From Saccharicrinis aurantiacus (GTDB taxonomy: Bacteria; Bacteroidota; Bacteroidia; Bacteroidales; Marinilabiliaceae), in contig NZ_LYBV02000035.1 of the NCBI RefSeq assembly GCF_001660705.2, positions 186,001 to 250,000 of the forward strand: DNA of 64,000 bases, given 5' to 3'. Under the pieces are notes generated by a model. It was not told the DNA's origin, searched no databases, and saw only the letters and a list, made by a program, of their open reading frames with translations. The position numbers and the translations under genes were made by a program. Position 1 is the first letter of the stretch; each line of letters starts with the position of its first letter. Below, in pieces: positions 22,415-41,067 of the stretch.

Positions 22415-22442
22415 TTGTGTCTTGATACTTGTGTCTTGATAC
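22415..22442 (+). repeat. Tandem duplication of a 14-mer upstream of the second sulfatase
   Basis: TTGTGTCTTGATAC occurs twice in direct succession (22415-22428 and 22429-22442), ending 13 bases before the likely ATG at 22456. Confidence 0.8.
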
Positions 22443-22455
22443 TAATTTTAAACAC

Positions 22456-26194: not shown

Positions 26195-26222
26195 TGCTCT
26201 TTTAGAGTGATAAAATAAAAGA

Positions 26223-26442
26223 ATCCGAGCTGTCTGTATTGATGGCTCGGATTTTTTTATCCACAAAACCCCAAACAAATTCCATTACGGTATAGGGTAC
26301 TTGTACGGGCCAAGCCATCTTATTTAGTTTGAATACAAATTAACTTAAGTAATTAAAGCATAATATAATTTTTGCTAGCTTCACAAGCCGAATAAACACC
26401 ACTTATAAACTTATATTGACACCTTAGGTGAGTATACATAAC
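26223..26442 (+). repeat. Long intergenic repeat, copy A (starts with terminator hairpin)
   Basis: The copy begins with a terminator: ATCCGAGC (26223-26230) pairs with GCTCGGAT (26245-26252) and seven T follow. Past that it holds TATTTAGTTT, ACAAATTAACTTAAGTAA and TCACAAGCCGAA, in the same order and spacing as copy B at 35248-35461. I judge similarity to be roughly 80% by eye. It occupies most of the 385-base gap after the third sulfatase. Confidence 0.8.
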
Positions 26443-26579
26443 ATACGTTAGGATGATATACAGATATATGGTGAGTATATAAGTTATTTAGAAATAATTA
26501 AGAAATAAATTCGTGATCAATTGGAATTCTCTATTCCTATATATGAATAATTTAAATTAACTATATTTTAAACAATACA

Positions 26580-27551
26580 ATGAAAAAAAATAATTTACTT
26601 TTTGCTATTGTACTTTTAATCTCTTGTGAAGGAGATCAAGGCGAGACAGGTCCTATGGGATCAATTAGTTTAATAAATATTGAAAATGAAATAGCAGGAA
26701 ATAATTGCTCTTCAGGAGGATTCAAAATTGAAACAGGCGTTGATATCAACAACAATGGAGTTTTGGATGATAATGAGATTCAATCAACAGAATACATTTG
26801 TAATGGAAATAATGGTTCTGATGGAATGAAAAGCTTGGTTAACTTTACAGAAGAGTTAGCTGGCGATAATTGTTCTTCAGGTGGGTACAGAATTGATTTA
26901 GGTATTGATATCAACAATAATGGAGTTTTAGATGATAATGAGATTCAATCAACAGAATATATTTGCAATGGAAATAATGGTTCTGACGGAATGAGAAGTT
27001 TGATAAACTTTACAGAAGAGTTAGCTGGCGATATTTGTTCTTCAGGTGGGTACAGAATTGATTTAGGTATTGATATCAATAACAATGGTGTTTTGGATGA
27101 TAACGAGATACAATCAACAGAATATATTTGTAATGGAAATAGTGGTTCTGATGGGAATGTAGATAGACAGACTAGAATATATTTTAATGGCAGTGTAGGT
27201 ACAAGTTCAACGAATTGGGAAATTAGTCCACATGGATCTTTTCATCTATATGAATTTAATAAGTTAAATTATCCTGATGTTGATTCTATTACTTTTGTAC
27301 CTTCTTTGTATACATCCGAGCCCAATGTGAAATGTGAAGTTCGCATTTTTAATGTTACTGACAATGAGGAGGTATTAGGAACAGAATTAGAATCAAATAG
27401 TACTGGTTATGATTTTATTGAATCTGGCGATATTTATAACCTACTACCCGATAAGAAAGTAACCTTAGCTATTCAAATAAGAAGTGCGAAAGAGGGAACA
27501 TATGTATCAACAGGGGCGCATTCATATCTATTTATTTATAGAAGTAAATAA
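26580..27551 (+). CDS. Repeat-bearing lipoprotein with DUF7151-like units
   Basis: A 323-residue predicted lipoprotein (LLISC, lipidated Cys 16). A short collagen-like GDQGETGPMG leads into three tandem 55-residue units (165 bp each: 26661-26825, 26826-26990, 26991-27155). Each unit carries a Cys-Ser-Ser-Gly-Gly motif, a D-x-N-x-N-G loop (GIDINNNGVLDDNE) that looks like a calcium site, and a closing YICNGN with a second Cys. Units 2 and 3 are nearly identical in DNA, so the duplication is recent. The C-terminal ~130 residues are an unrecognised beta-rich domain. The function is unknown; a surface-exposed spacer or adhesive role is inferred. Confidence 0.75.
   Translation: MKKNNLLFAIVLLISCEGDQGETGPMGSISLINIENEIAGNNCSSGGFKIETGVDINNNGVLDDNEIQSTEYICNGNNGSDGMKSLVNFTEELAGDNCSSGGYRIDLGIDINNNGVLDDNEIQSTEYICNGNNGSDGMRSLINFTEELAGDICSSGGYRIDLGIDINNNGVLDDNEIQSTEYICNGNSGSDGNVDRQTRIYFNGSVGTSSTNWEISPHGSFHLYEFNKLNYPDVDSITFVPSLYTSEPNVKCEVRIFNVTDNEEVLGTELESNSTGYDFIESGDIYNLLPDKKVTLAIQIRSAKEGTYVSTGAHSYLFIYRSK
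26661..27155 (+). repeat. Three 165-bp in-frame tandem repeats
   Basis: Units start at 26661, 26826 and 26991. The latter two differ at only a few bases, the first is more diverged. All lie in frame inside the lipoprotein gene. Confidence 0.9.
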
Positions 27552-28025
27552 GAAACAATTTCTAACATTTTGTCATAAGTAATGGCAGGTGATGTGGTAA
27601 ATATCAAGTTTTGTAGCCTGCTCAAACTGCATAGCGGTTGTTGAGAACTGGATTGTATGTTGGTGGAAAAAAGATTTTAAATTCTTGGAATGGTATTGAG
27701 ATTGACAAAGCAGAGGTCTTGGAATATATGAAATGGTCTAGAAGTGAGGTCCCACCACCAGCCAATATTGATGAAAAAATTACGCACCCCAATAAATTGG
27801 AATAAACAATGATGGCGGTTTGATTTTGGAAGGCCTTATGGCGAAACCAGTTCCGCCAACGCTTTTCATTCTATTTGGACTAAAAACCTACAAATAAAAT
27901 AACAAGCTTTGGCTCGGCAGGATTTTGAAAATGGATTTGTGTTTTATCTTCATGCAGTTCATCCAATTAGCCGTTGAAGCTTACTAGCAAGTTGTACTTT
28001 AGTGAAACTTTCATATCTTTGTTTT
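27552..28025. other. Intergenic stretch with a possible decayed reading frame
   Basis: Nothing firmly assignable. A plus-strand frame without a start is open from 27635 to a stop at 27803-27805 and reads GLYVGGKKILNSWNGIEI, then DKAEVLEYMKWSRSEVPPP. The composition looks protein-like, but I do not recognise it. It may be the residue of a gene lost at this accessory site. Confidence 0.25.
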
Positions 28026-28373
28026 ATGGAATCCAGAAAGAAATATAGAACAGCTATTTTTTATAAGGATTATTTTGAGGAGTTTTTCATAAAACAGAAT
28101 GAAAAGATTCGAGCTAAAATAATTTGGACTCTAGAATTAATTGAAGAATTAGAAAGAGTACCCGAAAGTTATTTAAAGCACATTACTTCAACAGAAGGTT
28201 TGTATGAGATTCGGATAAAACTTGGCAATAATATTTTTAGAATATTTTGTTTTTTTGATCAAGGAAAATTAATAATTCTTGCCAATGGATTTCATAAAAA
28301 GACGCAAAAAACTCCTAAAAAGGAGATTGATAAGGCACTTAAAATTATGGAGGAATATAAAAATGAAAAATAA
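28026..28373 (+). CDS. higB: RelE/HigB-type toxin (Gp49-like)
   Basis: A 115-residue toxin of the phage-derived Gp49-like HigB group, a ribosome-dependent mRNA interferase. The ATG at 28026 (MESRKKYRTAIFYKDYFEEF) is chosen over an upstream alternative start because it gives the family's usual length. Family signs are ESYLKHITSTEGLYEIRIK, then the NNIFRIFCFFDQGKLIILANGF strand pair and KKTQKTPKKEIDKALKIMEEY. The antitoxin gene starts 11 bases before the toxin stop, the toxin-first order of higBA. Confidence 0.85.
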   Translation: MESRKKYRTAIFYKDYFEEFFIKQNEKIRAKIIWTLELIEELERVPESYLKHITSTEGLYEIRIKLGNNIFRIFCFFDQGKLIILANGFHKKTQKTPKKEIDKALKIMEEYKNEK

Positions 28374-28662
28374 AATAGGAATGACTCTTAATGAGTTTAA
28401 GGATAAGCATTACGGAGCCAAAGGTACAACGAAGCGAGATGAACTGGATGATGGGTTTGAAAATTTTAAGCTTGGAACTTTAATCCATGAGGCTCGATTA
28501 GAAAAGGGAATGACACAAGCAGAGTTAGCAGAAAAAGTAGGTACCACAAAATCGTACATTTCAAAAATTGAAAATAATGTAAAAGAGGTTAGGTTGTCAA
28601 CTTTACAAAAAATTGTACAAATTGGTCTGGGTGGACACCTTGATTTATCGATTAGATTATAA
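28363..28662 (+). CDS. higA: HigA-type antitoxin, XRE helix-turn-helix
   Basis: A 99-residue DNA-binding antitoxin. The start at 28363 (MKNKIGMTLNEF) overlaps the toxin end by 11 bases, which is typical of coupled toxin-antitoxin genes. The XRE-type helix-turn-helix spans about residues 40-90: LIHEARLEKGMTQAELAEKV, then GTTKSYISKIENNVKEVR. It should neutralise the toxin and repress the operon promoter. No palindrome was confirmed upstream. Confidence 0.88.
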   Translation: MKNKIGMTLNEFKDKHYGAKGTTKRDELDDGFENFKLGTLIHEARLEKGMTQAELAEKVGTTKSYISKIENNVKEVRLSTLQKIVQIGLGGHLDLSIRL

Positions 28663-29155
28663 TTGATATCAATCGCCTCCTAAACGTTTTTATATAATGT
28701 GCTGCACGACTAGTTTAGTATCGGCCTCAGCCAGTGAACCAAAAAACAGGATTGAAATGACGGTTAAAAATTGTTTTCTGTTTGAGCGCTTTGAGGCACG
28801 AAAAAGTGTGAGTTTAAAACAATTTCAGTCATGAAACCTAGTTTTTTGAGTGAAATGGGTGTAGTCGACGGTTTTTTTGTCTACTTTTTTGACTGTAGAA
28901 AAAAGTAGAAGCCTTCACGGCTTGAGTGAAAATTTAATTAGGACAACATTAAATTGATATAATATGAGTAAGGTTAGTGCGGTAAATCTCGTATTACTCA
29001 TGCACGAGCCATCACCCCTCCATTTACACAATTCTATTGGTTATATCTTATTCTTATGCCGAAATAGCATTGGAAGACAAACCACAGTTGTTAGAATCAT
29101 TGGGTAAGTTTGTAAAAAGCTAAAAGAAAGCCCAGTTTACAATAAAGCATTAATT
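28663..29155. other. Intergenic region with dispersed-repeat text and a possible 3' gene remnant
   Basis: The stretch contains an inverted repeat CTACTTTTTT/AAAAAAGTAG near 28890-28910 and the phrase AGGACAACATT, which recurs near 35687. A startless plus-strand frame from 28986 to a stop at 29121-29123 ends SYAEIALEDKPQLLESLGKF and then VKS. A strong plus-strand terminator follows directly, so this may be the last fragment of a deleted gene. Confidence 0.3.
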
Positions 29156-29194
29156 AATAGCCTATCCGTAATACTTCGGGTAGGCTATTTTTGC
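29156..29194 (+). terminator. Plus-strand terminator with no intact upstream gene
   Basis: AATAGCCTATCCG (29156-29168) pairs with CGGGTAGGCTATT (29177-29189) with one G-T pair, followed by a run of T. The nearest intact plus-strand gene ends about 500 bases upstream. Confidence 0.8.
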
Positions 29195-29204
29195 ATAAAA
29201 GCAA

Positions 29205-29235
29205 TAGAGGGCATCCAAAACATGGATACCCTCTA
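29205..29235 (-). terminator. Terminator of the beta-helix protein gene
   Basis: TAGAGGGCATCCA (29205-29217) pairs with TGGATACCCTCTA (29223-29235) with one mismatch. It lies 65 bases beyond the stop of the minus-strand gene. Confidence 0.75.
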
Positions 29236-29299
29236 CAAATTAACATGATGTATTTTATATCATTATCAGAAACCTGGTTATCATCCTTATAACTATCAA

Positions 29300-32095
29300 T
29301 TATAATTTTACAAAACGCGTTCCTACTCTAATCTCCTTATTCGATAATACTATAACATATATTCCTGCAGGTATTTCATCAACCATTATTGTTGATTTTA
29401 AACTTGCTGCTGGTAGGGTGCCATTATTAACAATAGCTCCTGAAGCATTGTATATGGTATAGTTCATATCACTCATACTCATCTCAGAAGCCTCTATAAA
29501 TATTTGTGCTCCATTTACCGGGTTAGGGTATAATCTCATGCCAGCGGCATATAAATCATCCACACTTGCATTTATGGCACACCCCTTCTCATCTACTTCT
29601 ACACCAGCTTCGGTATTTGGGCATTCATCCACATCATCCATAACACCATCGCTATCCGTTTCGGATGGATCAGGATTTGAAGAACAATAATCGCCCGGTA
29701 AGCCGTAACAACCAAGTCCTGCAGGCCCTAGTTCAGGGTCCCAATTAATACCAGTGGTCCATTCTGTTGCTCCATATTCGTATGCACCAGCATCAGGACT
29801 AGCTCCCACAAAACCATCGGTAAAACCATCTATTTCTCTTCCAAAATCTATGGGTTGCGTATTGGCTTTTAAAGTAAAGTCGCCAGCCTCTATATCTGTA
29901 AACGGATTTCCGCTTGAAATGGTCAGGTTATTTTGCTTATCCGATTGCTCTTCCCAATCCGATTTATCAGATAAATTATTCCACACATTCACATTGTAAA
30001 ATTGCGTTCCATCTTTATGCCATGCACCCATGGTTGCTGAACCATTCCAAAGGGTGTTGTTATAGATATTTAAATCTTTTCCATCCCAATTAATTTGGAT
30101 GTTTGTCCATTCGGTATTACTTACCACATTGTGGTGTACATCAAAAGCTTCAGCATCATTATCTAAATAAATACCAGCCGCTTTACCATGAGCTCCTGGC
30201 GCACCATAATTGTCGTGAAAATAGTTATGGTGGATCTCAACATATTGAGGGCCTCCGGTTGTATAATATAAAGCACAGTCATCTACAATACCGTTACCGT
30301 ACGAGATATCATTATAAGCATATTCAGCATTGGTGTGGTTTGCATTAATAATATCACGTCCGGCGTGGTGTAAAGTATTGTTTTTAACAATGGTATTCGA
30401 ACCACCTCGTAAACTAAGCACAGCATCGTAACATCCTAAAGTATTGAAGTGATGAACGTGGTTGTTTAGTATTTTATGCCCATTGCCCTCTGCTTTAATT
30501 CCATTACCCGCACCATAAGCAATTTCACATTGTTCAATGGTGTTGCTAGAACCAGTAATCATGATGCTTTGGCTGCCAGAGTTAAATCCTTGATCAACCA
30601 CCCCTCTGGTATGATTTCCAAACGTACTGGTTACTTGGTATATCAAATTGTTCGATGCCGATCCAGTAATATCAATTCTACCGCCAGTAACAGCTAGGTT
30701 TTTAATTTCAATATAACTTTTATTGTATAGGTTAATGGTTAGTTCACGTTTTCTCATGCTTATTTGACCATCTAACGGAACCGTTCCTCCATCTACTTGC
30801 AAATAAAGCGTCTTTGTACTTTCGTTAAAATACCATTCGTTATCAATATCAATAGCCTCTTTAATACCTTCTAAAAAGAAATAACCTAAGCTAGCAGGAT
30901 CATGCCAAGTACGAATCCAGTCTGGGCTTTTATTTAGTTCAAAATTAACTTGTGTTGAGGTGCTTGCCTTAATCCATGATTTCCAAGCTATCCAGCCGCC
31001 GCCACCTTTGTTACCGTAAAACCAGATAGAGCCACCATCTTCCCAATTATAAGAAGGGATGCCTTCATTATAAGTAAGGTAAGCATCGAATATTTCATCA
31101 GATCCGCTACCTCCGCTATTTCTAATTCCATTAGGGGTAGATATGTCGCCATCGATATCGTTAGGCCATCGGGCCAATGTCATTATTTGGTCATCATTGA
31201 AAACCATATTCTTTTGTCCCAAACTCCAATCTACTGTTGTTTTGTAGATGTTACCTTCGTCTAAACTCCAATCGCTAAGCGCTTGCATGGCCGAAATAAT
31301 TACCTTTTCGCCTGCCGCACCCTGATACACAATTGGGTTTGTACTAGTACCTGAGTTTTGAGGCGTTAATGTTTCCTCGTAAGTTCCCTCACCAATAGTT
31401 ACTACATCGCCGGCTTTTGCCAAAGAAGCAGCCTTAGTTATGGTTAAAAAAGGACTGTCTTCAGCTCCTGTATTGTTGTCATCACCCGTTTTGCTCACAA
31501 AGTAATTCTGTGGTGTTTCTGGTACCACCGCATCGTTGGTAGTTAACGAAAAATGATCGAAGTAGATAGTAGTCGCATTTCTAGCTAGGCTAAACGATAG
31601 GGCCAATTTGCTAAAATCAGGCTCTCCAGCTAAAGCTGATGGAGTAAAAACATACTCAAACCTGTGCCATGCTCCATCACCTTGGAATGTAATTGCCGGT
31701 TGGCTAAACGCAGTTCCCCATGCAGCACCATCCATGTTTGTATGCGAATAGATTGATAAATCAATGGATTCTTCGCTATCCGAATTACTTAATGCATAAA
31801 ATACCAAGGTGTATTCTGAACTAGTTGATAGGTTTAGGTTTTGTTGGCGAAAAAATACTTTACCAGCATCTACGTCTGCAGTTGGTATAGTTGCTTTGGC
31901 AGCTTTGCTACCATCTTGGGCATAATCTGCAGAACTTTCGGCAATTACAGTTGGTCCGCCCCACGAACCAATCACCCAATCGCTTAGGTCAGTTTCAAAA
32001 CTGGGATTATTTATTAAGTTTTGCCCCTTTGCTTGTACCAAAAAGCAGAGTAACAATATACTTAATATCGAAAATCGAGTAAAAATAGCATTCAT
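29300..32095 (-). CDS. Secreted right-handed beta-helix protein with CBM-like N-terminus and type IX sorting domain
   Basis: A 931-residue secreted protein. The signal peptide ends near residue 24. Residues about 26-190 resemble a CBM4/9-type jelly roll (NLINNPSFETDLSDWVIGSW). Residues about 200-760 form a parallel beta-helix starting NYFVSKTGDDNNTGAEDSPF, with many N/H-rich turns (NNTLHHAGRD, IHHNYFHDNYGAPGAHGKA). An acidic thrombospondin-3-like calcium segment (SETDSDGVMDDVDECPNTEA) follows near 815. The last ~75 residues (MRLYPNPVNG to RVGTRFVKL) are a type A type IX secretion sorting domain. It is probably a polysaccharide lyase or hydrolase of unknown specificity. Type IX secretion genes are not in the window. 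Confidence 0.85.
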   Translation of the reverse strand: MNAIFTRFSILSILLLCFLVQAKGQNLINNPSFETDLSDWVIGSWGGPTVIAESSADYAQDGSKAAKATIPTADVDAGKVFFRQQNLNLSTSSEYTLVFYALSNSDSEESIDLSIYSHTNMDGAAWGTAFSQPAITFQGDGAWHRFEYVFTPSALAGEPDFSKLALSFSLARNATTIYFDHFSLTTNDAVVPETPQNYFVSKTGDDNNTGAEDSPFLTITKAASLAKAGDVVTIGEGTYEETLTPQNSGTSTNPIVYQGAAGEKVIISAMQALSDWSLDEGNIYKTTVDWSLGQKNMVFNDDQIMTLARWPNDIDGDISTPNGIRNSGGSGSDEIFDAYLTYNEGIPSYNWEDGGSIWFYGNKGGGGWIAWKSWIKASTSTQVNFELNKSPDWIRTWHDPASLGYFFLEGIKEAIDIDNEWYFNESTKTLYLQVDGGTVPLDGQISMRKRELTINLYNKSYIEIKNLAVTGGRIDITGSASNNLIYQVTSTFGNHTRGVVDQGFNSGSQSIMITGSSNTIEQCEIAYGAGNGIKAEGNGHKILNNHVHHFNTLGCYDAVLSLRGGSNTIVKNNTLHHAGRDIINANHTNAEYAYNDISYGNGIVDDCALYYTTGGPQYVEIHHNYFHDNYGAPGAHGKAAGIYLDNDAEAFDVHHNVVSNTEWTNIQINWDGKDLNIYNNTLWNGSATMGAWHKDGTQFYNVNVWNNLSDKSDWEEQSDKQNNLTISSGNPFTDIEAGDFTLKANTQPIDFGREIDGFTDGFVGASPDAGAYEYGATEWTTGINWDPELGPAGLGCYGLPGDYCSSNPDPSETDSDGVMDDVDECPNTEAGVEVDEKGCAINASVDDLYAAGMRLYPNPVNGAQIFIEASEMSMSDMNYTIYNASGAIVNNGTLPAASLKSTIMVDEIPAGIYVIVLSNKEIRVGTRFVKL

Positions 32096-32633
32096 AAATT
32101 TTATTTTAGTTTTTAGATATGTGTTCTAATAGAGGGATGAAACTTAATGAGCTATTTGATATATTCTTTTCAGTATCCCCACTCTTTATGGTATTACTTG
32201 TAACACGCTAAAAATAGGGCATACTATACATCTTTAGGTAGTAGATTTTGCAAACAATAGCGGGGGGATAATAATTGCATTAGCTGATAATAAAGTCGAA
32301 ATGGAAGCTTTTTTTATGTAAAAAAAGACCAATTTTTTACGATGAATCCTTTGTGTATACTACCGTACACAGCACATTAGAATGTTGAATGATACCAATT
32401 ATTTGATGGGGTTTTTGGTATTATTACCTGTATTGAATTTAAAATAGCGGTAAGCCCAAATAGGGTATAAATCATCAGTGCCAGTTTTAGTATCGAATTT
32501 TTTTTGCAAGCTTATAAACTGAAATGTCGTCTATTTTCTTCTTTTAATAGATAAAATCCGCTTATCTGTATATTAAATAGCGCATCATTCTCAGGGTTTT
32601 GTAAATTTGGGTAAATGATATAAAAATTTTGAT
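32096..32633. promoter_or_regulatory. Divergent regulatory region upstream of the beta-helix gene and the redox operon
   Basis: This 538-base gap contains GCTAAAAATAGGG at 32207-32219 (shared with 19100-19112), a G-run in GCGGGGGGATAATAAT near 32259, and a -7 element for the redox operon at 32602-32609. No gene is credible here. Confidence 0.5.
32602..32609 (+). promoter_or_regulatory. Putative -7 element of the redox operon (TAAATTTG)
   Basis: TAAATTTG matches TAnnTTTG exactly, 24 bases before the ferredoxin ATG. No TTG is present at the expected -33 spacing. Confidence 0.4.
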
Positions 32634-32846
32634 ATGGCGATTAATAACATAAGTGGATGCATTGGTTGTGGCGTATGTGTTAAAACATGCCCTACAGATG
32701 TAATTCGATTAAATAGTAAGGGAAAAGCTGAAATTAAGTATCCAGAGGATTGTCAAATATGCCATTTGTGCAGAATGTACTGCCCTGTTGATGCTATTAC
32801 AATAACACCAGAAAAGTCAATACCAGTAATCGTATCATGGGGGTAA
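32634..32846 (+). CDS. Two-cluster 4Fe-4S ferredoxin-like protein
   Basis: A 70-residue protein with two complete cysteine sets: C9, C12, C15 and C19 (CIGCGVCVKTCP), and C40, C43, C46 and C50 (CQICHLCRMYCP). This arrangement binds two [4Fe-4S] clusters and resembles the small electron-transfer partner of AprA/fumarate-reductase-like flavoproteins. There is no signal peptide. The gene overlaps the next one by 10 bases and precedes the flavoprotein, so the three form an operon. It probably carries electrons between the membrane protein and the flavoprotein. Confidence 0.9.
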   Translation: MAINNISGCIGCGVCVKTCPTDVIRLNSKGKAEIKYPEDCQICHLCRMYCPVDAITITPEKSIPVIVSWG

Positions 32847-33484
32847 TTATGGAAAAAAGAGTAAAACAATTTATTTGGATATTCGCAATAGGTATTTTTA
32901 TTGTTGTCCCTGGCTTCACTTATTCATTAGGAGATTTCCCAAGAAGAAGCTTTTTAAAAGAGACGATATCATTACTAACACTGTTATCATTTTTTGTAAT
33001 GATACTAATGTTTTATCTATCAAGAATTAACCGAAGTACATTAAAGCCATTTAAAATGGCAAAGGTGCTTAAATGGCACAAAGCACTGGGATATATCTTT
33101 GTAGGGATACTAATATTTCATCCTTTTTTCGTTATCGTTCCACGTTATTTTGAAGCAGGAATATCACCTGGAGATGCGTTTTCAGAGATACTCTCTAACT
33201 TAGATAAACAAGGCTTGCTCTTTGGTTTAATCGCATGGAGCACGATGATATTACTTGGTGTTACTTCTTTTTTTAGAGATAAATTACCAATGACCTACAA
33301 AACCTGGCGAATAGTACATGGTATTCTTTCACTTGTATTTCTATTTCTAGCATCCCTTCATGTTATTCAAACGGGCCGACATATGAGTGCAGCATTTATT
33401 AGTTTAATTCTTTTGCTCTCGGGTATTGGTATTGCCATGCTAATAAGAAGATACATATTGGATTCAACTTCAGAAAAGTCATAA
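32837..33484 (+). CDS. Ferric-reductase-like transmembrane cytochrome b-type protein
   Basis: A 215-residue integral membrane protein with about six hydrophobic segments. Paired histidines sit in KWHKALGYIFVGILIFHPFF and again in IVHGILSLVFLFLASLHVIQ, the pattern of bis-haem ligands in the ferric reductase-like transmembrane domain. No NAD or FAD domain is attached, so the redox partner must be another subunit. The start may be MGVIMEK at 32837 or MEKRVKQ at 32849; the overlap with the ferredoxin gene suggests translational coupling. The flavoprotein gene follows after 3 bases. It probably passes electrons across the membrane to the partner flavoprotein. Confidence 0.8.
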   Translation: MGVIMEKRVKQFIWIFAIGIFIVVPGFTYSLGDFPRRSFLKETISLLTLLSFFVMILMFYLSRINRSTLKPFKMAKVLKWHKALGYIFVGILIFHPFFVIVPRYFEAGISPGDAFSEILSNLDKQGLLFGLIAWSTMILLGVTSFFRDKLPMTYKTWRIVHGILSLVFLFLASLHVIQTGRHMSAAFISLILLLSGIGIAMLIRRYILDSTSEKS

Positions 33485-33487
33485 ATC

Positions 33488-35215
33488 ATGGGGAATAATA
33501 TTAATAGAAGAGAGTTTATTAGTTTATCAGGAGGCTTTGCAGGAATGGCAGCCTTAGCTTCAATGGGTATTTCTGGTTGGGGTGATAATGAGGCAGAATT
33601 AACTGTTGACGAAATTGAAAGTAAACAACACTCCTGTGATGTACTTGTAATAGGCGGTGGTATGGCTGGGTTATTTGCAGCCATCAAGGCCCATGATGCA
33701 GGAGCTAAAGTGCTGTTTGTTTCAAAAGGGCGATTAGGTTCTTCAGGGCAAACTCCCTTTGCCAAAGGAATTTTTGAGTACGATCCTAAAAATGCCAAAT
33801 TAACAATAGATGAGTTTGTTGAGAAAGTGAGCTTATCGGCCATTGGTACAAATAATCGGGTATATACGCGCCAATTAGCAGAACATTCAAAAGCTCGTGT
33901 AGACGAACTACGTGAATGGGGCTTTTTTGAATCACCTTTATATAATAAGTCTTTTTCAAAACCTATTAATGAGCGGCAAATACCTCTAATGGAGCGTATC
34001 ACCATTACCAATTTGATAAAAGAAAACGGAAAAATAGCTGGTGCAGCCGGATTTAGCATAGATGAAAAAGAAGTGCATTTTTTTAATGCAAAAAGTGTCA
34101 TACTTTGTACAGGAGCCGGAGGTTTTAAACCCAATGGTTTCCCTATCTGTGATTTAACGCACGATGGAACAATTATGGCATATAATATTGGAGCCAAAGT
34201 AACCGGAAAAGAGTGGAACGATGGTCACCCAGCAAAAGAAAAGAATGCTGCTGCTAGTTTTGATGGATGGGGCGATATGTTTTTGCAGAAACCCAGTACA
34301 ACGGATATTAATATTCGACACGATTTAGGGGTGGATATGAATTACCAAGCCTATGTAGGTGGAGGTGGCTCCATGCGCATGGGACCTCAGGGCCCGAATG
34401 GAGGCGCATCTGTAAAAGGTGGACCACAGAGACCTGCAGGCCTAGATAACCAAATGCCAGGCGGGCAAGGTTCAAAACCCGAAGGCGGTAAACGTCCACC
34501 CAAAGGTAAGGAAGGAGGAGCCCCTCCTGGAATGAGCGGGGGAGTAGTTGGTGGATCGTCGGCCGGTATGTCTATACACAAATCGGAAGGTTTAGTACCT
34601 ATTAATGATAAATGTGAGTCAAATATCCCAGGTTTATATGCTGCAGGCGATGCCTTAGGATCTCATATGGCTGGTGGAATTTATACTCAAATAGGTTCAT
34701 CTTTAGCTGGCTCGGCTGTTCAGGGTGCCGTGGCAGGAGAAGCAGCGGCTGAATATTCAGGTAAAACAGAAATTCAAAAACTAAGCAAGAGTAAAATAAA
34801 TACGATCCAATCAGAAATTTTTGCTCCATTAAAAAGAGAATCAGGATATAGTCCTGCATGGGTAACCCAAACACTTCAAGGTATTATGATACCAAACTTT
34901 GTGCTTTATGTAAAAAAGGAAAGTATAATGCGTGCTGCTTTAGCTTATGTTGTAGAGTTACGAGAATCGCACTTACCATATTTAAGAGCAAAAGACTTGC
35001 ACGAACTAAGATTAGTGCACGAAACCCGCAATATGATAATAACTGCTGAAATGAAACTTAAAGCCTCACTAATGAGGAAAGAAAGCCGATGTAGTCACTA
35101 TCGAATGGATTATCCTGAAATTGATCATGAAAATTGGGATGCCTGGATTAATATTTTTAAAGGAGATAATGGGGAAATGCTTTTTGAGAAACAAGCATTT
35201 GATTCATGGAGTTAA
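33488..35215 (+). CDS. Tat-type FAD-dependent reductase, fumarate reductase/AprA-like, with Gly/Pro-rich insert
   Basis: A 575-residue flavoprotein. The N-terminus carries NRREFISLSGG, a twin-arginine export-type leader, so it probably acts outside the cytoplasm. The FAD dinucleotide motif GGGMAG is at residues 56-61, and the second FAD segment is GLYAAGDALGSHMAGGIYTQ near 381-400. The C-terminal RKESRCSHYRMDYPEIDHEN is shared with fumarate reductase and AprA flavosubunits. Residues about 289-361, where the substrate-capping domain would continue, are replaced by a low-complexity run rich in Gly and Pro (GGGGSMRMGPQGPNGG and so on). The electron acceptor is unknown. It is the last gene of the redox operon. 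Confidence 0.85.
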   Translation: MGNNINRREFISLSGGFAGMAALASMGISGWGDNEAELTVDEIESKQHSCDVLVIGGGMAGLFAAIKAHDAGAKVLFVSKGRLGSSGQTPFAKGIFEYDPKNAKLTIDEFVEKVSLSAIGTNNRVYTRQLAEHSKARVDELREWGFFESPLYNKSFSKPINERQIPLMERITITNLIKENGKIAGAAGFSIDEKEVHFFNAKSVILCTGAGGFKPNGFPICDLTHDGTIMAYNIGAKVTGKEWNDGHPAKEKNAAASFDGWGDMFLQKPSTTDINIRHDLGVDMNYQAYVGGGGSMRMGPQGPNGGASVKGGPQRPAGLDNQMPGGQGSKPEGGKRPPKGKEGGAPPGMSGGVVGGSSAGMSIHKSEGLVPINDKCESNIPGLYAAGDALGSHMAGGIYTQIGSSLAGSAVQGAVAGEAAAEYSGKTEIQKLSKSKINTIQSEIFAPLKRESGYSPAWVTQTLQGIMIPNFVLYVKKESIMRAALAYVVELRESHLPYLRAKDLHELRLVHETRNMIITAEMKLKASLMRKESRCSHYRMDYPEIDHENWDAWINIFKGDNGEMLFEKQAFDSWS

Positions 35216-35247
35216 TGAGAATTACATAGTAATTGCTTAGGATCCTT

Positions 35248-35461
35248 ATCCGAGTCGTCAGTATTGATGGCTCGGATTTTTTTTACCCCACAAAAACTCA
35301 AACAAATTCTATTAGCGAACAGCTTACTTGTAAGGGCTAAGCCATCTTATTTAGTTTGGATACAAATTAACTTAAGTAAATAAAACATAATTGAATTTTT
35401 GCTAGTTTCACAAGCCGAACAAACACTGGTTAAGAATATATTATCACTTTTGGTGAGGATA
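35248..35461 (+). repeat. Long intergenic repeat, copy B (starts with terminator hairpin)
   Basis: The copy begins with the terminator of the redox operon: ATCCGAG (35248-35254) pairs with CTCGGAT (35271-35277), followed by eight T. It then runs parallel to copy A at 26223-26442 (GCCATCTTATTTAGTTTGGA, TTAACTTAAGTAA, TTTCACAAGCCGAA). The rest of the gap to 35730 contains GCAGCCTTGAT and a GCCTGCC-type hairpin near 35630-35655 also found near 24165-24250, and TAGGACAACATT near 35685. Confidence 0.8.
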
Positions 35462-35730
35462 TAAGTAAATTATCGGATACAAAAATAGCACTGCAGATTG
35501 AAAGTATATTAAATGAAGCAATAGCGTCCTAAAGGATTTTTAAGTTTAAGGCTAAGCTGCTAATGAATAATTTGTTATTGTAAGGTGTTTTTTCGTAGGC
35601 TTGTATTTAAGCAGCCTTGATCTTTTTTGCCCTGCCTTTGCCGGCAGGCAGGCTTGGGCAAAGAGCTCAATAGATAATATTATTTAGGACAACATTGTAA
35701 ATGAAGCAATTATTAAAGCAAACCGTATAA

Positions 35731-36870
35731 ATGAGAAACCTATTTATAATAGCATTTGTGGTATTTGTATCAAAAGCAAATGCACAATTATCAGACCCAT
35801 TTGATATGATTCGTAATCCTATTAATTACGATTCTATAGTACATTTCATTAACGATAGTTCATCCTATAACAGCCCTCGATTAGAAGATGCATACCTTCA
35901 GAGCTTAGGTACATTGTATTCATTCATCGGTAATTATAATAAGGCTGAGGAGTTATTTATAATTAGGGATACCAAAAAGGGATATATACCAGAGCATAAA
36001 GAAGAACTACAATTGAAAGGTTTTGGTGTAAATCAGGATACTTTAGTAAAGCTTTACAAACAATATAACGTAGTAATGTTTAATGAAGCGCATCATATGC
36101 CACAGCATCGTGCTTTTTTATACTCACAGCTTGAGGTGTTGAAGGAATTGGGCTTTACACAATTAGCTTTAGAGGCATTAAATGATGAAGACACCGAAAT
36201 TAGTACGCGAGCATATCCGGTAAACAATAATCCAGAACTTATTACAGGCGTTTATATAAGTGAACCGGTTTACGGCAATTTGCTTAGGCATGCCATCGAG
36301 TTAGGATTTACACTTATCCCTTATGAAACTTTTAAGTTAAGACGAGAGAAGGGGCAGGCAAAAAACATATTTAGCCAGTATAACAAAGAGCAGGGTAAAT
36401 TATTAATTTTAGCTGGTTATGGTCACATTGAAGAGAAGTTTCCTATGATGGCGTATCATCTAAAAAAAATGTTGAACGAGGAACTTTTAAGTATTTGTCA
36501 GCATACAAAGTTCGATATTGAACCCGTATTTCCGAACTCCGATAATAAGGATTTCTATTTGCAAAAAGATCCCAATGAATGCTATGATTATTGTTTGTAC
36601 CATAAGCCTCTTTTGAGTGACTCTAACATTCCTTATTGGTATACTTGGATGAATTTTAAGCATGTCGATTTTGCTAATTTATATGATGAGGCAATAAACG
36701 GTTCATTTATAGTTCAATTGTTTAACCCAAATGAAGTATATGGTATTCCTATATACCAATACTTTAGCGAAGAATCTACAGAAATAAAGATTGCCTATCC
36801 TAAAAGTGATACTTATAAGCTAAAGATACTTAGTAAAGAAAAAACAGTGGAGAAGTTAGTTAATCTATAA
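35731..36870 (+). CDS. Erythromycin-esterase/ChaN-like secreted protein
   Basis: A 379-residue protein with a signal peptide ending at about residue 18 (SKANA). After a short helical part with a TPR-like pattern (LGTLYSFIGNYNKAEELF), the segment VVMFNEAHHMPQHRAFLYSQ matches the active-site strand of the erythromycin esterase/ChaN/TraB superfamily, with E119 and H122 in the places of the catalytic Glu and His. LALEALNDED and LILAGYGHIEEKFPMMAYHL also fit the fold. The true substrate is unknown and antibiotic resistance should not be assumed. A second, more diverged member lies at 41068-42306. Confidence 0.6.
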   Translation: MRNLFIIAFVVFVSKANAQLSDPFDMIRNPINYDSIVHFINDSSSYNSPRLEDAYLQSLGTLYSFIGNYNKAEELFIIRDTKKGYIPEHKEELQLKGFGVNQDTLVKLYKQYNVVMFNEAHHMPQHRAFLYSQLEVLKELGFTQLALEALNDEDTEISTRAYPVNNNPELITGVYISEPVYGNLLRHAIELGFTLIPYETFKLRREKGQAKNIFSQYNKEQGKLLILAGYGHIEEKFPMMAYHLKKMLNEELLSICQHTKFDIEPVFPNSDNKDFYLQKDPNECYDYCLYHKPLLSDSNIPYWYTWMNFKHVDFANLYDEAINGSFIVQLFNPNEVYGIPIYQYFSEESTEIKIAYPKSDTYKLKILSKEKTVEKLVNL

Positions 36871-36890
36871 ATAAGCAAAATGTAAAGTAT

Positions 36891-36976
36891 CAAATTATAA
36901 AAACTAAAAATCCATAATATAGTTATCGCGGTGGCAAGTATTGTAAAATGCTTCCTATTCTGCAATTTCTATTTAA
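36891..36976 (+). pseudogene. Duplicated 3' end of the short-chain dehydrogenase gene
   Basis: This 86-base segment matches 39361-39446, inside the dehydrogenase gene, with about five mismatches (around 94% identity). It corresponds to the coding region for QIIKTKNPKYSYRVGKDGK and the following residues. There is no start and no enzyme domain, so it is a gene-end fragment. The remaining bases to 37306 hold no recognisable gene. Confidence 0.85.
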
Positions 36977-37306
36977 AGGGTAAACAAGAAAAGCAAAAAT
37001 AGAGATAGTCAACTAAATAGCCCTTTGATTAGTTCTAGCATATATATCGGGTTTTTATATGGTTCATTCAGGTAATAGTTATACTGAAAACAACTATAAC
37101 TTATAATCAATAAATACTAATCATTTTGTATGAAGCAACGATAAATATTGCTTTGCTGAAGCCTAAAGTCATTCAAATTTTTATTTATGTTCAGGAAGTA
37201 TTATGTTTATACAAAAATGTTGGCTTCATAGTGTTTTATTTCATAAACTACCTACGCATTATACAGTCAACCCTAATTACTAAAAAAACAAATTGAATAT
37301 AGAAGA

Positions 37307-38599
37307 ATGGAAAATATTTTCTCAAAAAAAATGTCTGAAAAATCCGACATTGAATTGCAGCAAATTATAGACAATAAAGGTAGTTATCAGCAGGAAGCTT
37401 ATTTAGCAGCGATTTATGAACTTGAAAAAAGGCAGCTAGCAACTACTGATATTTTAAAGCAGAAAGACCTAATTCTTCATGAAACTGAAAAAGTAAGTGA
37501 AGAAGAGGAGGAAACGGTTGAAAAAAGAAAATCTTTTCTAGAAATCCTAGAAGCCTTAATACCTACAAACGACTATTTTATCACCCCTATTATAATTTAC
37601 TTAAATGTGCTGATTTATGTAATTATGGTCTTAAGAGATGTTCACCCTGTGCAACCAACGGTAGAGTCTTTAATAGTATGGGGAGGGAACGTGAAGGGGC
37701 TTACATTAATGGGGCAACAATGGAGATTATTATCGAATATTTTTCTTCATGGTGGTATTTTACATCTGTTATTTAATATGTATGCTTTGTTATACATTGG
37801 TAAAGAAATTGAAACCCAATTTGGAAAAAATAGATACTTATTTACTTACGTTGTAACCGGAATTTTTGCAAGTATTGCTAGTGTGTCCGTAAATGATAAT
37901 ATTGTTTCTGTAGGAGCATCAGGTGCCATATTTGGAATGTATGGCCTTTTAACTGTTCAGTTATTTACTAAAAATATTATAATACCAGATGAATCGCGGA
38001 AGAGTTTTATAACTAGTGTAGTATCCTTTATTGCGTATAATTTATTATATGGTTTTTCACAAGAAGGGATTGATAATGCCGCTCATTTTGGAGGATTGAT
38101 AGCTGGGCTTGCCTTAGGTGGTATTTATAGTCTGTCGTCATATAAATCTCGCTTGTCTAAAGGCATTTCAATTGCTACATCAGTTGTTTTATTGATACTT
38201 ATTTTTGTGCTTCCAAAGCTTATACCTAACAAGACTGGGGAATACCAAGTAGCCATGAATAAGTTTGCTTTGAACGAGGAGAAAGCCTTATGGATGCACC
38301 GTGAAGATTTATCTTACATACCAGAAAATAAGATCAAATACTATTGCGATAGACTTGATTCTGAAGGAGTAGCTTTATGGAATGAAAACATTGAAATCTT
38401 AGGTGCTTTATCGGAGTTGCCTCCTCATTTAGAAGAAAATATTTCTCTTCTAATTCAATATTGTAGAATGAGAAGTGAGGCTTGTGAAATAATGAAGCAT
38501 TTGCTTCTTTATAACCGACAAGAAGACCTAGATAAAGTGGATGCTATAAATCTTAAAATTGAAGAAATTATAAATACTCTTACCGCACTTAATCAATAA
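37307..38599 (+). CDS. Rhomboid-family intramembrane serine protease
   Basis: A 430-residue membrane protease. About 90 N-terminal residues are cytoplasmic and charged (a run of Glu near 65-69). Six or so membrane segments follow between about 92 and 305. The rhomboid marks are all present: HLLFN with H153 and N157, the catalytic S205 in GASGAIFG and the catalytic H260 in AAHFGGLIAGL. About 125 C-terminal residues after the membrane part are soluble and helical. It cleaves single-pass membrane proteins inside the bilayer; the target is unknown. The preceding gap is 436 bases, so it is probably transcribed on its own. Confidence 0.92.
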   Translation: MENIFSKKMSEKSDIELQQIIDNKGSYQQEAYLAAIYELEKRQLATTDILKQKDLILHETEKVSEEEEETVEKRKSFLEILEALIPTNDYFITPIIIYLNVLIYVIMVLRDVHPVQPTVESLIVWGGNVKGLTLMGQQWRLLSNIFLHGGILHLLFNMYALLYIGKEIETQFGKNRYLFTYVVTGIFASIASVSVNDNIVSVGASGAIFGMYGLLTVQLFTKNIIIPDESRKSFITSVVSFIAYNLLYGFSQEGIDNAAHFGGLIAGLALGGIYSLSSYKSRLSKGISIATSVVLLILIFVLPKLIPNKTGEYQVAMNKFALNEEKALWMHREDLSYIPENKIKYYCDRLDSEGVALWNENIEILGALSELPPHLEENISLLIQYCRMRSEACEIMKHLLLYNRQEDLDKVDAINLKIEEIINTLTALNQ

Positions 38600-38697
38600 T
38601 GGCAATTACTAATTCGTACTGTTTGTTTTTGGTTTAAAGCAGTTAATTGTTATTCTTTTAGAGTAAGCCACAGAGTACATTATTTAAAATTAAAGAA

Positions 38698-39495
38698 ATG
38701 AATATATTAATAACCGGGTCTACCTCAGGAATTGGCGAAGTAATTGCTCAACATTTGTTGCAAAATAAATACAATGTTATTGGTACAAGCCGAAACCCTG
38801 ATGGGATAAAAGCTAAATTGACATATCCATTATTAAAACTCGATATTACTTCCCAAGCATCCATAGATAATTGTATTAACGAATTAGAAGCCAAAGGTAT
38901 CTCGATAGATGTTTTAATTAATAATGCCGGAATCGGAGTTTGTGGTTCAATAGAAGAAACATCTGCTGATTTAGCACGAGAGCAATTGGAAACTAATTTT
39001 TGGGGAGCAGTAAACTTAACAAAAGCCATTTTGCCTCAAATGCGTAAAAATAAAAAGGGGAAAATTGTTTTTATAACTTCACTTGCCGGACTTATTGGAG
39101 TGCCGTATCAAGGATTTTATTCAGCATCTAAACATGCTTTAGAAGGCTTTTGTAAATCGCTTCGCCAGGAGGTAAAAGAATTCGGTATTTCCATCTCGTC
39201 CGTTGAACCGGGTTTCTTTAAAACCAATTTGCACAACTCGTTTAAGTATGCCCATCCAACTATTAACGATTATTCACAAAGCAGGGAAAAGGTATTGGGT
39301 GTATTTGCCCATTCAATTGAAAATGCACCAAAGCCAACTGCGATTGCAACAACAGTGCTGCAAATTATAAAAACTAAAAATCCAAAATATAGTTATCGCG
39401 TTGGCAAGGACGGTAAAATGCTTCCTATTCTGCAATTTCTATTTAATTCCTTGTTTGAAAAAGGAGCGCGTAATAAATTCAAACTCCCATCTTAA
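38698..39495 (+). CDS. Short-chain dehydrogenase/reductase
   Basis: A 265-residue NAD(P)-dependent oxidoreductase of the classical SDR type. The cofactor motif GSTSGIG is at residues 7-13, NNAG at 75-78, and the catalytic Ser-Tyr-Lys at S128, Y141 and K145 (YSASKHALEGF). The C-terminal region resembles SDRs acting on sterols, lipids or retinoid-type substrates, but no specific substrate can be given. It is followed 115 bases later by the TlpA-like gene. A partial copy of its 3' end is present at 36891-36976. Confidence 0.9.
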   Translation: MNILITGSTSGIGEVIAQHLLQNKYNVIGTSRNPDGIKAKLTYPLLKLDITSQASIDNCINELEAKGISIDVLINNAGIGVCGSIEETSADLAREQLETNFWGAVNLTKAILPQMRKNKKGKIVFITSLAGLIGVPYQGFYSASKHALEGFCKSLRQEVKEFGISISSVEPGFFKTNLHNSFKYAHPTINDYSQSREKVLGVFAHSIENAPKPTAIATTVLQIIKTKNPKYSYRVGKDGKMLPILQFLFNSLFEKGARNKFKLPS

Positions 39496-39610
39496 TGGGC
39501 AAATAATAAAAGCTATAATAGAGATGCTTACTAAATATTGTAAGCTGATTTGATGCATGAATCTTATAAAAAAACAGAATCGCATAATACTCTCAAATAA
39601 ACCTATATAG

Positions 39611-40966
39611 ATGAAAACAACCCTTCTATTCTTCGCCTCATTATTTATTATTGTTTCTTGCACAAACAATAAACAGGTCACAATTAGTGTAAAAGCAGAA
39701 TATACTGAAAGTGATACCTTAACCATAAGAGACTTAACATCCGATAAGGTATTGGCTAAATTTGCAAGCGACAATACAGGACTAACACATACCTTCAATA
39801 TTGACTATCCGATAGCAGGGGCACTAAGCTCAAAAGTTTTAGATCAGGGATATCTTTTGTATTTACATCCAAATAAAAACATTGAAATTACCATTACTAA
39901 TAACAAACAAATAAGTTCTAATAATGTCTGTGATTCTCTTCTGAATTATCTACATTTTAGTCAAAACGAATTTTTAGCCACGAATGGAGGTTTCGTATTT
40001 ACGACAAATAATAATGATTCAATAGCTGCACTTTTCGATCAATTCAGATTAAAAAGAGAAAAAGAAATTTATAGGTTTAAAAATAAGCTAACTAAAGATG
40101 AGATAGGCTTTTTAGAATATCAGAATTCTGCAAGAATCTACTCTTTTTTATTCTACTTTGGGAGAGTTGCAAAGCAGCTCGATTTAAAATCTAGTTATTA
40201 TAATTTTTGTAATAATATTCAGGGAGATAATAATTGGTGTAAAACGCTGCCTGATATTCTTATTTATAAATATGAAGTTGATTTTGTACGAGAGTATGAC
40301 TCGATAACTGATTTAAGTGCTTTTATTAAATACATAAAACTACATTGTAACAACAACGATTATTCAGACTTCTTTATTGCAACATATTTAGAAGGTTTAA
40401 TTTCACATCCATCCTATTGGCCCCAACATGATAAGTGCTTGAATGCAGAGGTCTTGAATGCATTAGTTGAATCGGAAAAGGATAATAAATACTTTTCAAT
40501 TATAAAGAAAACATCTGACTCTTATTTTCAATCACAGAAAGGGGAATACGCTTACAATTTTACAGCAATTGATAAACAGGGAAACAAAGTAGAACTATCG
40601 GATTTTAAAGGAAAAGTTGTTTTAATTGATGCGTGGGCAACATGGTGTGGCCCCTGTTTAAATCATAGACCAGCAATAAAAGATTTTGCCAAGAAATATC
40701 AAGACAATTCAAACGTGGCTATTCTAATGGTTTCAGTTGATGAAAAAAGAGAACGATGGTTAGATTTTGTAGAAAAAGACAACCCTAGCGGTAATGGGAT
40801 AGACCTTTATATAAAGAATGGCAGAGAAACTAAATTTGGAGATTCATTTAATGTAAAATCAATTCCAAGATATATATTGATTGATAAACAAGGCATCATC
40901 CATAATGCAAACATAGCTGAACCATCAATAATTTTGGAGGAAATGATTGAAAAATTACTGAAATAA
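39611..40966 (+). CDS. TlpA-like thioredoxin-domain lipoprotein
   Basis: A 451-residue lipoprotein (FIIVSC, lipidated Cys near residue 17). The first ~310 residues are a poorly conserved domain common in Bacteroidota TlpA-like proteins (VTISVKAEYTESDTLTIRDL). The C-terminal ~140 residues form a thioredoxin fold with WATWCGPC (C346-C349), VELSDFKGKVVLIDAWATW before it and the cis-Pro in KSIPRYILIDKQG. It probably reduces disulfides of envelope proteins from the periplasmic face. It sits between the dehydrogenase and the second esterase-like gene with gaps of about 100 bases, so one transcript is possible. Confidence 0.9.
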   Translation: MKTTLLFFASLFIIVSCTNNKQVTISVKAEYTESDTLTIRDLTSDKVLAKFASDNTGLTHTFNIDYPIAGALSSKVLDQGYLLYLHPNKNIEITITNNKQISSNNVCDSLLNYLHFSQNEFLATNGGFVFTTNNNDSIAALFDQFRLKREKEIYRFKNKLTKDEIGFLEYQNSARIYSFLFYFGRVAKQLDLKSSYYNFCNNIQGDNNWCKTLPDILIYKYEVDFVREYDSITDLSAFIKYIKLHCNNNDYSDFFIATYLEGLISHPSYWPQHDKCLNAEVLNALVESEKDNKYFSIIKKTSDSYFQSQKGEYAYNFTAIDKQGNKVELSDFKGKVVLIDAWATWCGPCLNHRPAIKDFAKKYQDNSNVAILMVSVDEKRERWLDFVEKDNPSGNGIDLYIKNGRETKFGDSFNVKSIPRYILIDKQGIIHNANIAEPSIILEEMIEKLLK

Positions 40967-41067
40967 AGAATAATGAGCTAACGCAGAATAGGTGAGATAA
41001 TAGCTGATGAAGTTATAAAATCGAACCTCGTTTTTCTAGCAATCTTTATAAAACCTAATAGAAAAGA

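Follow-up and report, generated by a model that had tools for sequence, protein, structure and literature searches.

Introduction

In MsrPQ, an exported oxidoreductase, the molybdoenzyme MsrP, adjoins a haem protein of the family PF01794. APS reductase (adenosine 5'-phosphosulfate reductase, AprBA) and the PAPS reductase (3'-phosphoadenosine 5'-phosphosulfate reductase) of Methanothermococcus thermolithotrophicus (structure 8a8o) join an alpha subunit of the fumarate reductase family, which carries flavin adenine dinucleotide (FAD), to a small beta subunit with two [4Fe-4S] clusters (PMC10322725, PMC2211403). FccA and UrdA, periplasmic fumarate/urocanate reductases, are exported members of FAD_binding_2 that receive electrons across the membrane and use haem c or covalent flavin mononucleotide (FMN) domains (PMC8238504). 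Flavinylated extracytosolic enzymes are reported to draw electrons from two kinds of membrane protein, NapH-like ones and MsrQ-like ones, the latter belonging to PF01794 and frequently carrying an NAD-binding domain (PMC8238504); PMC11334425 also places MsrQ-like cytochromes in this role. Here, we describe a unit of three genes, hereafter the trio, in a 64,000-nucleotide stretch of Saccharicrinis aurantiacus (contig NZ_LYBV02000035.1, positions 186,001 to 250,000; "the window" below means this whole stretch). Its products, a ferredoxin, a membrane cytochrome and a flavoprotein, probably make up an extracytoplasmic reductase and the electron supply dedicated to it.

Results

A gene order found in about ten phyla

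A scan of named genomes confirmed 143 homologous loci, the best 80 of which were fetched. By their titles, these 80 carriers belong mostly to marine genera; Bacteroidota, sulfate reducers, vibrios and their relatives, roseobacters, Campylobacterota, spirochaetes, Calditrichota, Planctomycetota and others are represented. The loci span about ten phyla. Gene order was read in 83 loci (L003 to L086 without L005): ferredoxin, short cytochrome and flavoprotein follow one another in 67, and a long PF01794 protein precedes ferredoxin and flavoprotein in 8, which are gammaproteobacterial. The remainder have ferredoxin and flavoprotein without a detected PF01794 gene (5), no detected ferredoxin gene (1) or a contig end cutting the unit (2). 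Since one order is retained in so many loci, the arrangement is not due to chance; a survey for this order, proposed as a check by the original prediction made from the window's sequence, found it well beyond this genome. On a quick tree the phylum labels cluster: ten labels need 14 changes, against a least possible 9 and a shuffled mean of 31.7.

Within Bacteroidota, the distribution of the flavoprotein is patchy. It is encoded in 3 of 296 sample genomes and in 2 of 41 close relatives, S. aurantiacus being counted in both, and in one of eight other members of the genus. A plasmid of Paracoccus seriniphilus carries a standard trio, annotated in PLSDB/RefSeq as "4Fe-4S dicluster domain-containing protein," "ferric reductase-like transmembrane domain-containing protein" and "FAD-binding protein." The genome that holds locus L004 has a broken second flavoprotein copy with two stop codons (L005, G062:C46), and a search of the S. 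aurantiacus genome for a second copy returned just one distant frame of 611 residues. A viral origin was considered and dropped: no relative is encoded on any viral contig of the collection scanned.

A predicted Tat flavoprotein of the AprA/fumarate reductase superfamily

Pfam finds FAD_binding_2 (4.5e-22) and Succ_DH_flav_C (8e-11) in the flavoprotein. Its leader reads NRREF, a twin-arginine motif by which it is predicted to be a substrate of twin-arginine translocation (Tat). Of the 83 flavoprotein open reading frames (ORFs) of the window and 82 loci, 79 have a motif of the RRxF type (78 by pattern, plus L042); the flavoproteins of L015 and L038, as read, lack their N-termini. The AlphaFold model (predicted local distance difference test, pLDDT, 77; predicted template modelling score 0.83) is closest to the alpha subunit of the PAPS reductase 8a8o among PDB entries (Foldseek E 1.8e-23; Z 32.9 over 448 residues); fumarate reductase of Escherichia coli comes next (Z 30-32), ahead of AprA (Z 28.4). 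Domains, modelled fold and leader all agree with the exported-type, AprA/fumarate-reductase-like flavoprotein that had been predicted.

The protein was set against the named enzymes of this superfamily. Its scores on the NCBIfam models for Sdh and Frd are all below their cut-offs, and the AprA model TIGR02061 gives it 81.2 bits against a cut-off of 641.75; two AprA proteins of a Desulfosarcina carrier reach 945.9 and 851.1 bits. Residues were compared in an alignment of 59 of the 84 flavoproteins read, chosen for diversity and intactness (L015, L025, L038 and L042 are among those omitted). Two histidines, H247 and H364, are kept in all 59 rows and align with histidines of Sdh1 (7d6v) that we take to be substrate residues. 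The place of the NRxGG arginine of 7d6v, presumably carboxylate-binding in SdhA, is occupied by T400, which is Thr in 58 of the 59 rows. The active site of AprA comprises Asn74, Trp234, Arg265 and His398, and its substrate channel lies between the FAD domain and a capping domain formed by residues 262-393 (PMC2211403). Asn74 falls within the aligned stretches, with Trp234, Arg265 and His398 outside them; its position, read off by counting, corresponds to F96, and Phe stands there in every row. The capping region is roughly as long as that of AprA, and in the model its pLDDT drops below 50 at residues 300-306 and 322-349. In all 59 rows it contains a Pro/Gly-rich core of 31-89 residues (median 43), in which Pro plus Gly average 45% (28% in the lowest row) against 15% elsewhere; by eye, the core is also present in three flavoproteins of Ilyobacter polytropus described below. 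Because the tested Asn74 and NRxGG positions are changed and the capping region appears altered, we assign the flavoprotein neither to the APS reductases nor to the fumarate reductases, and T400 together with the capping region makes dicarboxylate-type substrates less likely.

Pro/Gly segments shared between the flavoprotein and its neighbours were considered as a separate lead. At a score limit of 7 with PP, 46 of 974 neighbour ORFs matched, compared with 5 of 376 in the background (p 0.002), and all eight settings gave p 0.0002-0.03. Within the same genomes, the contrast fades (11 of 134 vs 13 of 376, 5 vs 5 and 2 vs 0; p 0.03, 0.14 and 0.07), and we treat the signal as suggestive only. Stretches like the flavoprotein loop also occur in histidine-kinase-type proteins encoded near the unit (L007:15135-16247, L037:1190-2278, L065:2379-3902 and L079:10741-12231; Pfam assignment covers the last two).

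A leaderless ferredoxin and a stand-alone membrane cytochrome

The ferredoxin matches Fer4 (7.2e-12) and has its cluster cysteines at C9/C12/C15/C19 and C40/C43/C46/C50. Its residues 1-58 match residues 1-58 of 8a8o_C (E 1.2e-8), with polyferredoxins ranking above this match. An AprA/PAPS-reductase-fold FAD subunit is encoded with a two-cluster subunit, as in AprBA. Among 82 homologous ferredoxin ORFs, 69 have eight cysteines, 12 have nine and one cut ORF has four, and Trp is the second-last residue in all. As had been predicted, the window's ferredoxin has no leader, and the picture is much the same across these ORFs: in 73, the stretch from the preceding stop to the aligned start contains no ATG in frame (GTG and TTG not counted), and RR occurs in the upstream frame of six, none of them judged leader-like.

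In the cytochrome, PF01794 (Ferric_reduct) is the sole family found (50.1 bits against a cut-off of 28), in line with the stand-alone ferric-reductase-like membrane domain anticipated from the sequence. Two putative pairs of b-haem ligands, His81/His95 and His161/His175, each spaced by 14 residues, give it the two bis-His sites expected of MsrQ/NOX proteins. All four histidines are present in 70 of 70 aligned short-type cytochromes (window included, long NOX-type proteins excluded), which matches what would be expected for two putative b haems.

Exchange of the membrane partner

The eight long PF01794 proteins are of NOX type: those of L070 and L085, the two scanned with Pfam, have FAD- and NAD-binding domains, and the other six align with the L070 protein almost end to end at 44-65% identity. 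In these loci, the ferredoxin gene immediately precedes that of the flavoprotein. Among the five loci that lack PF01794, L064 and L071 have a NapH-like Fer4_5 protein close to the flavoprotein. A TatC gene follows the flavoprotein gene by at most 10 nt in the spirochaete loci L056, L059 and L064 (by Pfam for L056 and L064, and by grouping with them for L059). A relative with 41% identity is encoded on a plasmid of Ilyobacter polytropus (Fusobacteriota), in a set that comprises a NapH-like/FMN_bind protein, a small protein of secreted type that fits no clear family, a ferredoxin, three flavoproteins, of which only the third has a twin-arginine leader, and TatA-TatC-TatA. Among the proteins scanned, FMN_bind was seen only there; it is absent from the three window proteins and their two neighbours, and other loci were not searched for it systematically. 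The NOX and NapH/FMN_bind variants suggest that electrons flow outward and that the ferredoxin is exported with the flavoprotein; since its gene stays with the flavoprotein gene through these exchanges and it has no leader, it may leave the cytoplasm by hitch-hiking.

Neighbouring genes and a cell-surface cluster

Neighbours were counted in flanks of about 8 kb around 82 loci that passed our filter (which removed L004 and L005; flanks are short in L003 and L006, and some others are cut by contig ends), using profiles built from the same loci, of which a few ORFs match two. CotH lies near 25 of the 82 loci and Lcl_C near 23, followed by a LytS-type kinase and a small Gly/Pro-rich protein (17 each), VTC and DUF4956 (13 each) and DUF2490 (11); 36 LytTR-profile matches were left unused, general response regulators being among them. 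Lcl_C neighbours extend to roseobacters, desulfobacteria, Campylobacterota and spirochaetes. By comparison, whole genomes have 1-3 CotH matches each in the 11, of 17, where there are any, and 2-10 Lcl_C domain matches in the 13, of 16, where there are any; these genomes were chosen after the neighbours were known, and adjacency in them gives no unbiased rate.

In one congener (G298), a single strand carries Lcl_C, two small Gly/Pro-rich proteins, VTC, DUF4956, DUF2490, CotH, the ferredoxin, cytochrome and flavoprotein, LytS and LytTR. S. aurantiacus itself has a VTC-DUF4956-DUF2490-CotH-LytS-LytTR cluster with a small Gly/Pro-rich protein on another contig (L116 8046-13978, contig C32), where the trio is absent. 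A Spy/ZraP fold for the small Gly/Pro-rich protein was considered and rejected, its model being helical and without significant PDB match, as was a link to YHYH, a domain present in 7 of 19 genomes and, when positions were compared, about 9 and about 2 kb from the flavoprotein in two.

Several further observations concern these surroundings. Small PPP-rich proteins with no obvious leader are encoded near the unit in Campylobacterota and Desulfobacterota (L031, L045, L033, L049, L050 and L055); Pfam finds EF-hands in that of L050 and no family in that of L033. A sulfatase-type gene stands beside a tandem Lcl_C gene in the S. aurantiacus genome (L117 9591-12191, by eye) and in L120 (10036-12744, by Pfam), and in L075 (4638-10948) sulfatase-type and Lcl_C genes flank the trio on opposite sides. 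Ahead of the surface cluster in L119 (2587-4049) and L121 (1087-2663), a gene for an extracytoplasmic function (ECF) sigma factor (by Pfam in L119) is followed by two short genes, the last of which exceeds the LTXXQ cut-off in L121 and has no family in L119.

Layout of the locus in the window

The trio lies exactly where it had been predicted, with its genes overlapping or nearly touching (Table 1). The ferredoxin and cytochrome genes overlap by 10 nt (an alternative cytochrome ATG is at 32849), and 3 nt separate the cytochrome stop from the flavoprotein start. Terminator-like sites in the region number 6, against 2.1 in shuffles; the listed hairpin is the only one on the plus strand and likely marks the end of the three-gene unit. 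No RNA element reaches its gathering score within 26000-42000.

Table 1. Features of the three-gene unit, in window coordinates.
Feature	Coordinates	Strand	Details and basis
Leaderless 2x[4Fe-4S] ferredoxin	32634..32846	+	70 aa ORF; C-terminus PEKSIPVIVSWG; Pfam Fer4/Fer4_7
Ferredoxin cluster motif 1, CxxCxxCxxxCP, aa 9-20	32658..32693	+	translation
Ferredoxin cluster motif 2, CxxCxxCxxxCP, aa 40-51	32751..32786	+	translation
Stand-alone PF01794 membrane cytochrome, MsrQ-like	32837..33484	+	215 aa; Pfam 3.4e-13
Tat-type FAD flavoprotein, AprA/SdhA/FrdA superfamily	33488..35215	+	575 aa; Pfam, NCBIfam, fold comparison
Twin-arginine leader region, aa 1-30, RR at aa 7-8	33488..33577	+	translation; motif pattern
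Pro/Gly-rich stretch, predicted disordered, capping-domain region, aa ~300-356	34385..34555	+	AlphaFold pLDDT and alignment
Intrinsic-terminator-like hairpin with T tail	35248..35277	+	13 pairs

The nearest genes appear unrelated to the trio, judging from Pfam searches of two neighbours. Divergent from it on the minus strand (29300-32095) is a gene for a 931-residue secreted protein with CBM_4_9, a beta helix and a Por secretion tail, and the downstream neighbour has a weak ChaN match below threshold. Farther upstream on the plus strand, three sulfatase-like genes stand in tandem (20534-22276, 22429-23958 and 24365-26194; PF00884 at 5.5e-59 in the third, the other two assigned by clustering with it), followed by a 323-residue protein with three DUF7151 stretches (26580-27551; 9.2e-58).

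Discussion

From the gene order, cofactor motifs, leader, membrane-partner variants and neighbours read in these sequences, we propose a complex, a route of export, a direction of electron flow, a donor and a substrate site for the trio. The ferredoxin and flavoprotein would pair in the manner of AprBA, bringing together FAD and two [4Fe-4S] clusters; the pair would fold in the cytoplasm and exit jointly via Tat using the flavoprotein's leader. Two b haems of the PF01794 protein would give electrons a path through the membrane, with quinol as the donor in most species and NAD(P)H where the protein is of NOX type, and electrons would then pass from the haems to the ferredoxin, the FAD and finally a substrate outside. 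Since a flexible Pro/Gly-rich loop seems to make up part of the region that caps the site in relatives, we expect an active site that is open or gated by a partner, perhaps for a bulky or surface-bound substrate. We are rather confident of an exported AprBA-like reductase and, slightly less firmly, we think it likely that the ferredoxin is located outside and, by analogy with known systems, that electrons flow outward. The transmembrane chain to an extracytoplasmic flavoprotein that the original prediction envisaged would fit the gene order, the leader, the NOX and NapH variants and the tat neighbours. Of the two places it allowed for the ferredoxin, co-export is the one suggested by a leaderless protein kept beside a Tat flavoprotein, and a place inside is less favoured.

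Several findings weigh against this proposal. The contact between ferredoxin and flavoprotein is something we infer, and for the direction of the electrons we rely on analogy and on what the NOX and NapH variants suggest. AprB has, besides its ferredoxin segment, a three-stranded sheet and a long tail wrapping AprA; the window protein consists of the ferredoxin segment only (70 residues against 148; PMC2211403) and so lacks the parts by which AprB holds AprA, and the electron-relay Trp of AprB and PAPS reductase is absent from the aligned place. The L025 leader reads SGRQF, one Arg having been lost, and L043 has no leader in frame. L042, L062 and L083 have no PF01794 partner and, by eye, no NapH-like gene. 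As for a connection with the cell surface, CotH was not found in the flanks of 57 of the 82 loci, nor Lcl_C in those of 59, and in S. aurantiacus the surface cluster is not adjacent to the trio. DUF4956 occurs in 27 of 41 relatives against 2 for the flavoprotein, and in 68 of 296 genomes against 3 (S. aurantiacus included), and one genome that carries the flavoprotein (G102) is not among the 68.

Two other explanations deserve weight, though each seems to us rather unlikely. In the first, the trio would be a classic anaerobic respiratory reductase, whose cytochrome drains quinol towards a small soluble periplasmic acceptor such as fumarate, urocanate, an acid of the cinnamate or acrylate type, or an oxyanion of sulfur. 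Membership in the superfamily of FccA, UrdA and FrdA, the two invariant histidines and the sulfate reducers and Campylobacterota among the carriers would suit such an enzyme, but T400 in place of the arginine, the apparently altered capping region and recurrent neighbours that are surface and sensor genes speak against it. So do the many carriers in genera that we take to be aerobic marine flavobacteria and roseobacters. In the second, to which we would give about the same small credence, the trio would resemble MsrPQ in function and serve envelope redox maintenance or metal stress, repairing oxidised surface proteins or reducing metal ions or oxidants. It has a PF01794 partner as MsrPQ does, the small Gly/Pro-rich proteins are helical and of secreted type, two-component or ECF sigma genes lie by some loci, and SCO1 and YHYH are near the L119 unit. 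The small protein of L010 and a protein near the L042 unit also match Metal_resist, but at 17.2 and 18.5 bits against a cut-off of 29.2; the small-protein model has no significant PDB match, the sole LTXXQ protein above threshold (L121) sits in a CotH cluster without the trio, and regulators are common everywhere.

It is more doubtful that the flavoprotein alone is exported and the ferredoxin stays inside, feeding cytoplasmic electrons to the membrane cytochrome. The missing leader would allow this, as would the 67 loci in which the ferredoxin gene precedes the cytochrome gene rather than adjoining the flavoprotein gene; yet such a ferredoxin would be superfluous beside a NOX-type partner, where its gene directly precedes that of the flavoprotein, and it also accompanies the flavoprotein where PF01794 is missing and in Ilyobacter, which has an FMN_bind domain expected to lie outside, and the fold relatives pair as AprB does. 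Equally doubtful is a reversed chain, in which the flavoprotein would be an extracytoplasmic dehydrogenase that oxidises a surface substrate, with ferredoxin and haems relaying the electrons to quinone: the superfamily includes both dehydrogenases and reductases and an NAD(P)H domain is absent from the short cytochrome, but the NAD(P)H-type domain of the NOX-type variants favours outward flow.

For the proposed extracytoplasmic reductase, we lean towards a role at the surface because of the neighbouring cluster, the association of its members with Pel and the ligands of Lcl: genes for the exopolysaccharide Pel are found together with CotH, DUF4956 and a polyphosphate polymerase in streptococci and clostridia (PMC7112168), and Legionella Lcl binds sulphated glycosaminoglycans (PMC11162425). 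Whether the role is linked to the envelope or surface rather than to energy metabolism nevertheless strikes us as evenly balanced. An obligate partnership of the trio with the CotH cluster is ruled out, DUF4956 occurring without the flavoprotein in 25 of the 41 relatives and G102, which has the flavoprotein, being absent from the DUF4956 matches. Since DUF4956 is much the commoner of the two, the trio would be, in several Bacteroidota, an optional accessory of a cell-surface or envelope cluster. A bolder version, which we consider improbable, is a redox modifier of exported surface material: a Pro/Gly docking loop would replace the cap, and the enzyme, served by an exported iron-sulfur relay, would act on macromolecules of the CotH/VTC/DUF4956/Lcl_C cluster. 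If true, redox modification outside the cytoplasm would gain a new class. As similar units occur in about ten phyla with swappable MsrQ-like, NOX-like and NapH-like partners, several cultured marine bacteria lend themselves to a test of the co-exported ferredoxin, and the apparently altered capping region and repeated CotH/Lcl_C setting offer a way into a widespread cluster little covered in print, judging from DUF4956 in the open-access literature.

Among the matches listed from the open-access literature (most subscription journals lie outside it), no paper, by its title or the start of its abstract, concerns the combination of ferredoxin, cytochrome and flavoprotein, and none presents close homologues as a known respiratory reductase, a possibility raised by the original prediction. 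The trio would be a variant of already known extracytoplasmic reductases. Compared with AprBA and PAPS reductase, it has a Tat-type leader, a 70-residue ferredoxin, a Pro/Gly-rich capping region partly disordered in the model, an invariant Phe at the Asn74 position and a dedicated membrane cytochrome. MsrPQ differs in its cofactors, the trio using FAD and ferredoxin. Neither the haem c nor the covalent FMN domains of FccA and UrdA were found in the trio, nor was FMN_bind in or beside its reductase as in UrdA-type systems, and its flavoprotein has the C-terminal Succ_DH_flav_C domain of SdhA and AprA. The MsrQ-like and NapH-like systems with FMN_bind/ApbE use the same two kinds of membrane donor that accompany the ferredoxin-flavoprotein pair here; the carrier is different, being a ferredoxin in our loci, and the available parts of PMC8238504 and PMC11334425 do not describe the trio's combination. 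If our proposal holds, an exported enzyme of the fumarate reductase family would be wired to the membrane in a third way, with a co-exported [4Fe-4S] ferredoxin taking its place besides haem c and covalent FMN.

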